This document shows, in pieces, positions 18,105 through 25,139 of a DNA stretch of 34,808 nucleotides; position 1 is the first letter of the stretch, and each line of letters begins with the position of its first letter. The DNA is from Candidatus Thermoplasmatota archaeon (GTDB lineage: Archaea > Thermoplasmatota > SW-10-69-26 > JACQPN01 > JAIVGT01). Position numbers and translations under genes: made by a program. Location of the stretch: positions 1 through 34,808 of the forward strand of contig DATLFM010000071.1 of NCBI GenBank assembly GCA_035541015.1. Direction: 5' to 3'. The notes beneath the pieces are model-generated. The model was not told the origin of the DNA, did not search any database, and worked only from the letters and a program-made list of their open reading frames with translations.

Positions 18105-18113
18105 GAAGGAAGT

Positions 18114-18185
18114 AGCCCCGCCTGGATTCGAACCAGGGTCAAGAGATCCAGAGTCTCCTATGATTGGCCGCTACACCACGGGGCT
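18114..18185 (-). tRNA. tRNA-Gln (anticodon CTG)
   Basis: The 72-nt minus-strand sequence folds as a complete tRNA. The acceptor stem is AGCCCCG with CGGGGCT; the D-arm contains GTAGCGGCC; the anticodon stem GGAGA/TCTCT flanks the loop CTCTGGA with anticodon CTG (decodes CAG, Gln); the T-arm is CCTGG-TTCGAAT-CCAGG. CCA is not encoded, and there is no intron. A TATA-like island (18214-18223) lies about 33 nt upstream of the 5' end. Its 3' end is copied at 17851-17868. Confidence 0.95.
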
Positions 18186-21397: not shown

Positions 21398-24300
21398 TCA
21401 GCGCTTGCGCGCGCGCGCGGGCTTGGCGGGGCGCGGACGCGCGGACGCGCGGGCGGGCCGCTTGGTCGCCCGGGGCCGGGTCGGCCGCGCGGGCGAGAGG
21501 GCGATCGTGACGGTCTCCCCCTCGACGTCCCACTCCTTCGTCCACGTGCCGCGTGGCGCTTGCCCGAACTCGATCGAGACGCTGCGCGTGGCGCCTTTCA
21601 CGTCGTCGAGGTTCGCGCGCAGGAGCGCGGTCGTCTCCGGCGAGGCGGCGATCCGCGCGGCGATCGTGGCCGTCACCTCGAGATCCGCCTCCTTCCGCAT
21701 CTCCTGGATCCGGCGGGTGATCTCGCGCGCCATCCCTTCGGCCTTGAGGTCGTCGGGGATGTTGGTGTCCACGTAGACGGAGCCGCCTTGAAATTCGGCG
21801 CCGACGTACTCGGCCGAGAGCTTCTCCTGGAAGGTCACCATGTCCGGCGTGAGGGTGAAGACCATCTCCTCGTGCGTGAGCTCCACCTTGCCCAGGACCG
21901 AGAGCTCCTTCTCGATGCTCTCGATCTCGGCGGGCGTGAGGGACCGCAGGCGCTCGATGACAAGCGGACCGTCCTGCCGGAAGGTCTTCCCGATCACGTT
22001 CTTCACGGGCAGGATCTCCTTGGCAAAGCGGCCCCACCGCGAGCCGACGTACTCGACGCTCTTTGCGTTCGTCTGCTCGGCAAGGAGCGGGCCGAACCGC
22101 GCGACGACCTCGGAGAGCGCGGGCTCGCCGGCGACCCACAGCGTCCGCACGGGCCAGCGCAGCTTGAGGTTGGCCTTCGCCCGCGCCTGGGCGGCGGCGT
22201 CGACGATGGAGCGCGCGCGGGAGAGCTGCCCTTCGAGCGCCGGGTCGCGCCGGTTGGGCCGCGCCTTGGGCCAGTCCTCCATGTGGACGCTCTCGCGCTC
22301 GCCTCCGAGGTCCGCGTGCAGGGCCTCGGCGACGTGCGGGGCGTAGGGCGCAAGGAGCCGCGCCACGCCCGAGAGGGCCTCGTGCAGCGTGGCGTAGGCG
22401 GCAAGCTTGTCCCGGCTCGCCTTCTCCTGCCACGTGCGGTCGCGCACCAGGCGCACGTAGAAGCGGGAAAGGTCCTCCAGGACGAAGTTCGCAAGCGCTC
22501 GGGCGCCCAGGTGATAATGACTGGTCTCGAACGCCGTCGTCACCTCGTCGCGCACGGACTCGAGCCGTGAGAGGAGCCACCGGTCCTCGCGACGGGCGTG
22601 CTTGAGGCCTTGCGGCGCGTCCGACGCGCGGAAGCCGTCGAGCGCCATGTACGTCGTCGCGAAGACGTGGACGTTCCAGAGCACGTTCAGCATGCGCTGG
22701 TGGTTGCGAACGGCTTCCCAGGAGAACGCGACGTCCTCCCAGGGCGCCCCGGAGAGGAAATAGAAGCGCATCGCGTCGGCGCCGTGCTTGGCGATGACGT
22801 CGTGCGGCGGAATGATGTTGCCAAGCGACTTCGACATGGGCTTGCCCTCGGGGTCGAGCGCCCAGCCGTGCATGAGCACGCGCTCGTAGGGCACCGCATC
22901 GAGCGCCGCGACGCCGGCGCCAAGCTGCGAGTAGAACCAGCCGCGCGTCTGGTCCTGCGCCTCCGTGATCCAGTCGCACGGGAACCACTTCTTGAACTCC
23001 CTGTCCGACCCGGGATACCCAAGCTGCGCCCAGCTCGCGCAAGCCGAGTCGAACCACACGTCGAAGACGTCGGGCACGCGGCGCATGAGCGCCTTGCCCC
23101 CGCACGCGTCGCAGCGCAGGAGCACGCCGTCGATGCCCGGCCGGTGGAGGTCCATTTCCTTCTTGTAACCCTTCGCCGCGTGCCTGGCGAGCTCGCGGAC
23201 GGACCCGACGATCCGCGTGTGCCCGCGCTCGCACCGCCACGCCGGGATGGGAATGCCCCAGTAGCGCTGCCGCGAGACGCACCAGTCGCGCGCGTTCTCG
23301 ACCCAGTCGCGCTGGCGTGCGGAGCCGGCCCACTCGGGCGTCCACGCCACCCGGTCGACCTCGGCGAGCATCTTGTCCTTGATCTTCGTGATCGCCACGA
23401 ACCACTGCCGCGTGGTGCGGTAGAGGATCGGGGTCTTGCACCGCCAGCAGTGGCCGTACCGGTGCGTGATGCGCCCCTCGTGCAGGAGGAGGCCCTTCCC
23501 ACGAAGGCTCTCGACGACTGCGGGGTCCGCCTGCTTCACGTCGACGCCGGCAAACGGGCCGGCTTCGTCGGTGTACCGCCCGTTCTCGCCGACAGGGCAG
23601 AAAGGCGGAATCCCGGTCTTCTCGCCGACGGCGAAGTCCTCCGCGCCGTGCCCAGTCGCCGTGTGCACGAGGCCCGTGTTCTCCGCCGTCACGTGGTCGG
23701 CCAGCACGACGGTGTTGTTGCGCGGCGTGGGCGGCGAACGATGATAGGGCAACTCCTCGGCGAACGGGTGGCGGTAGCGCACGCCCTCGAGGTCGGCGCC
23801 CACGACGTGGCCGAGCACGGTGTGGTCGTCGTACCGGCCAAGCGCCAGGACTTGCTCGACGAGCGCGTCGAGCAGGATGAGCGTCTCGTCGCGGCCGTCC
23901 TTCCTCGCGAGAACCTTCGCGTAGCTGAACGTGGGGTGCGCCGCGACGGCGACGTTGGCTGGAAGCGTCCACGGGGTCGTGGTCCAGATGACGAGGAAGG
24001 TGTTGGGCGCGTCGGCCAAGGGGAACTTCACGTACACGGCCGGGTCGTCCTCGTCCCAGTACTCGACCTCGGCCTCCGCAAGCGCCGTCTCGCAGCGGGG
24101 ACACCAGCTCATGCCACCCTTCTCGGCCTGGTAGACGAGGCCTTTCTCGTTCGCGCGCGCAAGAGCCCACCACGCGCCCTCGATGTAGGCGTTGTCGATC
24201 GTGCGGTAGGGATTCTCCCAGTCGAGCCACACGCCAAGCTCCTGGAACTCGGCGGTCATGCTCTCGAGGTAGCCAAGCGCGAAGTCGCGGCACTTCTTCA

Positions 24301-24682
24301 CGAACTTCGCCATGCCCATCGCCTCGATGTCCTTCTTGTTGGCGATGCCAAGCTCCTTCTCGACCTTCACCTCGATCGGAAGGCCGTGCATGTCGAAGCC
24401 CGCCTGGTCGCGCACGTCGCGCCCCTGCATGCGCGCAAACCGAAGCTGAGCGTCCTTGAGGATCTTGTTCCAGGCCGTGCCGAGGTGGATGTGGCCCGAG
24501 GTGTACGGCGGCCCGTCGATGAAGTAGAAGGGCTTGCCCCCCGCGCGAAGCTTGCGCGTCCGCTCGTGCACCTTCGCCTTGCGCCACCACGCCTGGATGC
24601 GCGGCTCAAGCTCCCGCGGATCGTACGACTTCGCGGCGCGCGCCACGGGCTTGCTGCGTGCGGCTCGAGAAGCTCGAACCAT
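21398..24682 (-). CDS. ileS: Isoleucyl-tRNA synthetase
   Basis: This 1094-aa class I synthetase carries the HIGH-type motif HIHLG at residues 64-68, the CP1 editing domain, WCVSRQRYWGIPIPAW, the zinc-type CxxC pairs (SWCPRCE, CDACGG), ASCWAQ-like DVWFDSACASW and the KMSKS-type KPMSKSLGNIIPPHD. The later half holds the anticodon-binding and C-terminal domains with SVYVDTNIPDDLKAEGMAREI. It matches the archaeal/eukaryotic-length group. An unusual basic tail of about 30 residues (RPTRPRATKRPARASARP..., Arg/Pro/Ala/Lys-rich) ends the protein. ATG 24682 is preferred, 26 nt from the shared TATA island; the frame is open to 24757. It is divergent from a Nudix gene. Confidence 0.97.
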   Translation of the reverse strand: MVRASRAARSKPVARAAKSYDPRELEPRIQAWWRKAKVHERTRKLRAGGKPFYFIDGPPYTSGHIHLGTAWNKILKDAQLRFARMQGRDVRDQAGFDMHGLPIEVKVEKELGIANKKDIEAMGMAKFVKKCRDFALGYLESMTAEFQELGVWLDWENPYRTIDNAYIEGAWWALARANEKGLVYQAEKGGMSWCPRCETALAEAEVEYWDEDDPAVYVKFPLADAPNTFLVIWTTTPWTLPANVAVAAHPTFSYAKVLARKDGRDETLILLDALVEQVLALGRYDDHTVLGHVVGADLEGVRYRHPFAEELPYHRSPPTPRNNTVVLADHVTAENTGLVHTATGHGAEDFAVGEKTGIPPFCPVGENGRYTDEAGPFAGVDVKQADPAVVESLRGKGLLLHEGRITHRYGHCWRCKTPILYRTTRQWFVAITKIKDKMLAEVDRVAWTPEWAGSARQRDWVENARDWCVSRQRYWGIPIPAWRCERGHTRIVGSVRELARHAAKGYKKEMDLHRPGIDGVLLRCDACGGKALMRRVPDVFDVWFDSACASWAQLGYPGSDREFKKWFPCDWITEAQDQTRGWFYSQLGAGVAALDAVPYERVLMHGWALDPEGKPMSKSLGNIIPPHDVIAKHGADAMRFYFLSGAPWEDVAFSWEAVRNHQRMLNVLWNVHVFATTYMALDGFRASDAPQGLKHARREDRWLLSRLESVRDEVTTAFETSHYHLGARALANFVLEDLSRFYVRLVRDRTWQEKASRDKLAAYATLHEALSGVARLLAPYAPHVAEALHADLGGERESVHMEDWPKARPNRRDPALEGQLSRARSIVDAAAQARAKANLKLRWPVRTLWVAGEPALSEVVARFGPLLAEQTNAKSVEYVGSRWGRFAKEILPVKNVIGKTFRQDGPLVIERLRSLTPAEIESIEKELSVLGKVELTHEEMVFTLTPDMVTFQEKLSAEYVGAEFQGGSVYVDTNIPDDLKAEGMAREITRRIQEMRKEADLEVTATIAARIAASPETTALLRANLDDVKGATRSVSIEFGQAPRGTWTKEWDVEGETVTIALSPARPTRPRATKRPARASARPRPAKPARARKR

Positions 24683-24703
24683 CGGGCCCGCTAGGGAAGC
24701 GAG

Positions 24704-24712
24704 ATATTTAAA
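24704..24712. promoter_or_regulatory. Shared TATA island between ileS and Nudix gene
   Basis: ATATTTAAA is the single AT island between the two divergent genes. Its centre is 26 nt from the ileS ATG (24682) and 27 nt from the Nudix ATG (24735), and it reads as a TATA box on both strands. Two leaderless transcripts from one core promoter are predicted. Confidence 0.65.
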
Positions 24713-24734
24713 CGGTTGTGCGGTTCCCGCGGCG

Positions 24735-25139
24735 ATGAAGCGTCGCGAGGTCGTCACGTGCTTCCTGCGGCGCCCGGACGGAAAAGTCCTTCTGCTGCGA
24801 CGCAGCGACCGCGTGCAGACCTATCCGGGCAAGTGGGCGGGCGTGAGCGGAAGCTTCGCGGGCGAGGATCCCGAGACGGGCGCGCGGCGCGAGATCCTCG
24901 AGGAGACGGGCCTTGGGCCGCCCTCCGTCCACCTCGCCCGTCGCGGCGATCCGATGCGCGTGTTCGACCCGCAGCTTGCCGCGGAGTGGATCGTGCACCC
25001 GTTCCTGTTCGACGTGGCGCCGGGCGCGGAGCCCACGCTCAACTGGGAGAACGAGGAGAGCCGTTGGGTCGATCCGGACGAGATCGAGCGTTACCCCCAC
25101 GTGCCCGCCCTCCCGGAGACCTTGCGAAAAGTACTTTGA
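24735..25139 (+). CDS. Nudix hydrolase
   Basis: The 134-aa product contains the Nudix box REILEETGL preceded by a Gly/Glu loop (GSFAGEDPETGAR); the spacing from the first Gly to the first Glu is one residue shorter than the G-x5-E consensus. The core 'VLLLRRSDRVQTYPGKWAGVSG' is typical of NUDIX/IPP-isomerase-like enzymes. Such proteins hydrolyse nucleoside diphosphate-X compounds; the substrate is unknown. ATG 24735 is 27 nt after the TATA island it shares with ileS. Frames open further upstream are antisense to ileS. Confidence 0.85.
   Translation: MKRREVVTCFLRRPDGKVLLLRRSDRVQTYPGKWAGVSGSFAGEDPETGARREILEETGLGPPSVHLARRGDPMRVFDPQLAAEWIVHPFLFDVAPGAEPTLNWENEESRWVDPDEIERYPHVPALPETLRKVL

Follow-up and report, generated by a model that had tools for sequence, protein, structure and literature searches.

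Two divergent genes around one AT island

The window, i.e., the whole stretch of 34,808 nt that was analysed, corresponds to contig C71 in the draft genome G000 (2.2 Mb in 114 contigs). Two of its genes are transcribed away from each other, and their identities were checked against NCBIfam and Pfam:

21398..24682, minus strand: ileS, isoleucyl-tRNA synthetase, 1094 aa (TIGR00392, 934.3 bits; cut-off 621)
24735..25139, plus strand: Nudix hydrolase, 134 aa (PF00293 NUDIX, E 2.2e-20)

The A residues of the two start codons (ileS ATG at 24682, minus; Nudix ATG at 24735, plus) are 53 nt apart and enclose a gap of 52 nt, in which the sole A/T run of at least six nucleotides is ATATTTAAA at 24704-24712, centred on 24708 at a distance of 26 and 27 nt from the two ATGs. 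Its palindromic core TTTAAA (24707-24712) occupies positions −28 to −23 of the Nudix gene and −30 to −25 of ileS. A first-pass annotation had described just this single AT island between the ATGs; its coordinates are exact and its spacing of 26/27 nt was reproduced.

The start of the Nudix gene has counterparts in homologues, with an ATG at the same residue in L003 and L004 and a TTG in L005. For ileS, the start was set by hand to ATG 24682 for the promoter analysis, and it is placed there because an ATG is found in about the same position in a relative of the same class (G006, locus L087; MGEREPVQPARSEYDP next to MVRASRAARSKPVARAAKSYDP). The ileS frame furthermore stays open across the promoter up to GTG 24757 within the Nudix gene (24683-24757), so that automatic annotators could wrongly lengthen ileS. 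At its other end, IleS carries a tail of ~30 amino acids with many Ala, Arg, Lys, and Pro residues (21398-21500), and a tRNA-Gln gene (ctg) lies at 18112-18185 on the minus strand.

Predicted leaderless promoters across the genome

Genes were called first on 849 kb of G000 (834 genes) and then on 1.40 Mb (1386 genes) by means of a self-trained coding score that is blind to upstream sequence; upstream regions with N or near a contig end as well as genes open at a contig end were left out. In the 1.40 Mb, combined BRE and TATA sites cluster 26-30 nt ahead of start codons, and AT hexamers peak at −31 to −28 of first genes. Shine-Dalgarno motifs precede 77 of 176 operon-internal genes versus 46 of 531 first genes. 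From 431 co-directional first genes of this genome, ileS and the Nudix gene not among them, a promoter matrix was derived; it displays AA at −34/−33 and a T-rich TATA at −30 to −26 in its commonest register (−36), and roughly 53 % of the genes carry such a promoter, with the consensus GCAAGCTTTATG. The matrices of G006 and G004, both relatives from this class, have the same promoter layout. Leaderless initiation, the premise of the first-pass annotation, is thus well supported as the predicted mode in this genome by the positional enrichment of TATA and BRE and by the rarity of Shine-Dalgarno motifs at first genes. The machinery is archaeal: a genome search found one gene for TBP and one for TFB.

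In Haloferax volcanii, 72 % of the protein-coding transcripts are reported to be leaderless (PMC4983044). The genome described here would share this genome-wide leaderless design, which in the present case, however, is read from DNA sequence and belongs to a separate lineage.

Reading the island in both directions

Scored with this matrix, the gap contains the following elements:

24704..24712, no strand: AT island ATATTTAAA with the TATA core TTTAAA at 24707-24712 (matrix score of the TATA part 7.93 bits both ways)
24714..24719, minus strand: BRE-like sequence for ileS, ACAACC, with AA at 24717-24716 (BRE part of the matrix)
24692..24693, minus strand: A/T at −11/−10 of ileS (TA), the initially melted position (from the sequence)
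24724..24725, plus strand: A/T at −11/−10 of the Nudix gene (TT; from the sequence)
24699..24704, plus strand: GCGAGA, the expected place of a BRE in the Nudix direction, without a match (BRE part of the matrix)

Toward ileS, the island reaches 10.38 bits in register −36 (90th percentile of first genes), a score attained by none of 2319 coding windows, and this direction has two features of an archaeal leaderless core promoter, namely a TATA about 26-30 nt before the start codon and a BRE just upstream of it. Toward the Nudix gene, the score is 6.89 bits in register −34 (74th percentile of first genes), which is equalled or exceeded by a fraction of 0.0034 (0.34 %) of the coding windows; this register is rare among the trained sites (0.029 versus 0.208 at −36). 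While the TATA part is identical both ways, the BRE part is not: on the ileS side it amounts to 5.43 bits in register −37 and 1.76 bits in the best-scoring register −36 (strong co-directional promoters: 1.09 at the 10 % and 4.41 at the 50 % quantile), whereas on the Nudix side the two best registers yield −0.43 and −0.92 bits. Both values are lower than the 5 % quantile of 0.07 in a set of 90 strong co-directional promoters, whose selection by total score raises the BRE quantiles. A/T at both −11 and −10 occurs in 24 of these 90 strong promoters compared to 15 of 223 weak ones. A scan for sigma-70 promoters and terminators gave no match, as expected in an archaeon.

The first-pass annotation had regarded the TATA as nearly symmetric and symmetrically placed, with direction set by TFB recognition elements alone. 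The near-palindromic TATA and the near-equal spacing agree with the former, yet the site as a whole is not symmetric: AA is present around the BRE position toward ileS, and a BRE is missing toward Nudix. A role of the BRE in direction is supported by the equal TATA parts and by the single genes for TBP and TFB in the genome search; the word "alone", however, passes over the A/T melting region at −11/−10.

Reportedly, Warman and colleagues argued in 2021 for bacterial and archaeal bidirectional promoters from sequence symmetry. Divergent transcription from a shared TATA is already published for archaea: in Pyrococcus furiosus, it is described for a BRE-TATA-BRE motif, with in vitro transcripts that start 49 bp apart from one TATA, and the authors assume that the reverse RNAs are non-functional antisense (PMC6640164). 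The ileS/Nudix gap resembles this case in its near-symmetric TTTAAA midway between divergent starts and in its dimensions (start codons 53 nt apart as compared to starts ~50 nt apart in P. furiosus), the offset between the two TATA cores being 0 across the 52-nt gap when start codons stand in for RNA starts. It differs in that a BRE is present on the ileS side only, while P. furiosus has one on both sides, the weaker on the antisense side; in that the reverse direction meets a gene rather than giving antisense RNA; and in that its starts are deduced from the DNA and those of P. furiosus were measured.

Among 225 divergent pairs in the sample from G000 (ileS/Nudix counted, with its hand-set ileS start, but excluded from matrix training and group tables), both best sites fall on one core (within 3 nt) in 11, and four have a shared core with at least 5 bits both ways:

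24682/24735: ileS/Nudix
6299/6356: pair in L202
15425/15484: pair in L216
14644/14695: a second pair in the window

The last of these has a central TATAT in a 50-nt gap (5.2 and 9.1 bits); judged by eye from the translations, it encodes a MutY-like glycosylase on the minus strand and a small protein on the plus strand.

We favour, with a probability of roughly 0.6, the reading that the gap holds a strong leaderless promoter of ileS and that, owing to its near-palindromic TATA, the same site also initiates transcription of the Nudix gene in reverse, at a lower level. The gap would then be a compact archaeal core promoter with TBP on the one TATA, where TFB, aided by the ileS-side BRE with its AA, would orient the complex mostly toward ileS, and the leaderless ileS mRNA would begin at or near the ileS ATG. 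A reverse complex would form less often and give rise to a leaderless or near-leaderless Nudix mRNA; we infer its formation from the near-palindromic TATA, the leaderless distance of the Nudix ATG, and the A/T at the melting position. The start sites and relative strengths are likewise predicted, and since the Nudix side is devoid of a BRE, the output is expected to favour ileS. The claim that one TATA fires both genes may accordingly be kept as far as the TATA at leaderless distance from both ATGs is concerned, but not in the sense of equal firing, given the missing BRE toward Nudix.

A less probable, though serious, alternative is that the island is the promoter of ileS only and that the Nudix gene is transcribed from elsewhere (a promoter inside ileS or read-through), the reverse match being a by-product of the palindromic TATA. 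Apart from the lack of a BRE toward Nudix, this is suggested by strong co-directional promoters with no divergent gene adjoining, of which 9 in 99 score at least 5 bits in reverse on the same TATA (control offsets of 12-16, 17-21, and 22-26: none of the 99 in each case) and 3 in 86 with a forward score of at least 8 bits reach 6.89 bits or more. Symmetry alone therefore yields some reverse scores, and the Nudix match could be one of them. The same 3 in 86, on the other hand, make a reverse score this good uncommon; the Nudix ATG has the spacing of a leaderless start and TT at −11/−10, and within 300 nt upstream of either gene no site is stronger than the island (next best upstream of Nudix: 5.65 bits at −276 and 5.20 bits at −67). 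That the island is read toward the Nudix gene as well as toward ileS thus appears likely from its sequence.

A nearly self-complementary promoter core and possible competition between genes

The BRE-TATA core of G000 is nearly self-complementary in yet another way. At offsets of 5-9, at which one direction's BRE coincides with the opposite direction's TATA (a swap palindrome, AASSTT), 26 of the 99 strong co-directional promoters have a reverse match of at least 5 bits, compared to weaker figures of 4 in 40 and 5 in 52 in the relatives G006 and G004. The swap palindrome is enriched in divergent pairs of this genome with gaps of 58-63 nt, for example in L191 (12126/12189; 13.4 and 12.9 bits). 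Good sites both ways are present in 8 of 15 pairs with such gaps versus 21 of 183 with gaps of at least 64 nt (Fisher 2.6e-4), where it should be considered that in the 58-63-nt gaps the two scores overlap in sequence and that the bins were set after viewing the data. Compact divergent pairs are also in excess in G000, with 21 at gaps of 55-64 nt against 12.5 expected (Poisson 0.017); as the gap bins were picked post hoc, the p-values are merely indicative. In the small samples from the relatives, this excess was not reproduced (gaps of 50-63 nt: G006, 1 of 68 counted pairs; G004, 5 of 62). The swap-register enrichment in divergent pairs is hence a lead and not a result. Tentatively, and with the odds rather against it, the near self-complementarity of the consensus GCAAGCTTTATG in two registers, shared TATA (start codons ~51-58 nt apart) or BRE as TATA (~59-64 nt apart), may define a promoter-locked class in which divergent leaderless genes are rivals for a single TBP-TFB site.

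That the ileS/Nudix promoter is balanced and couples the two genes for a functional reason, as the first-pass annotation had suggested in tying a tRNA synthetase to a Nudix hydrolase, is improbable. A single common TATA, equal TATA scores, and near-equal spacing speak for such coupling; the one-sided BRE, the restriction to one complex at a time per TATA, and gene order in relatives speak against it. Of 30 ileS loci (those fetched from 138 genomes matched in a search of the phylum), only that of the window has a Nudix-box pattern upstream of ileS; none of the 29 from relatives has one, 5 of these with less than 700 nt of flank, and such a crude pattern may overlook divergent Nudix boxes. The Nudix protein was matched in 2 of 5 genomes of the order, and in the second of these (G002), the matching gene is on contig C2 and ileS on C15. 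No ileS was seen by eye in the translated frames of the flanks read around the Nudix relatives in G002, L004, and L005, and in G006 the divergent neighbour of ileS is an unrelated gene (also by eye). One other genome of the family is in the collection, in which the class is represented by seven genomes, and it matched neither query. A conserved ileS-Nudix pair was consequently rejected, the order being kept in no relative examined, and the proposed tie is not supported, on this ground and on that of the mutual exclusion of complexes on one TATA. TTTAAA and CTCGCTTCCC are common to the ileS leaders of G000 and G006, but their spacing to the ATG differs and there are two sequences only, so that this sharing was not accepted as conservation. 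The closest Nudix relative found in the contig scan (L004, 6001-6399, 49 % identity) comes from a draft assembly that bears a bacterial label, Chromatiales, which points either to transfer or to mis-binning.

The bidirectional promoters of E. coli offer a comparison: divergent initiation likewise proceeds there from a pseudo-symmetric element, one binding event excluding the other, even though its sigma-70 elements represent a machinery different from that of the ileS/Nudix promoter; steric competition is reported only when transcription is high (Warman and colleagues 2026, PMC12825309), which argues against simple coupling of ileS and Nudix. If at all, a shared TATA would couple the two genes by competition. 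Least probable is that ileS starts from GTG 24646 with a ~36-nt leader and that the symmetry of the ATGs is a coincidence: the coding-score caller chose this GTG over ATG 24682 and the shorter ileS N-termini of G002, G003, and G004 would fit it too, but the distance between ATG 24682 and a 10.38-bit promoter is the modal one for leaderless genes, ileS of G006 has an ATG and residues like the extension, and no Shine-Dalgarno-like motif is seen by eye before GTG 24646.

For the biology of ileS or of the Nudix hydrolase, the shared TATA holds nothing new. Its interest lies in the promoter: if both RNAs start at the ATGs, the TATA of one gene would be shown to drive a second gene in the reverse direction without a BRE, and if this is true, the contribution of the BRE to direction would be measurable at this gap, which with two predicted leaderless genes, one TATA, single TBP and TFB genes detected in the genome, and a one-sided BRE represents a small and clean test case.
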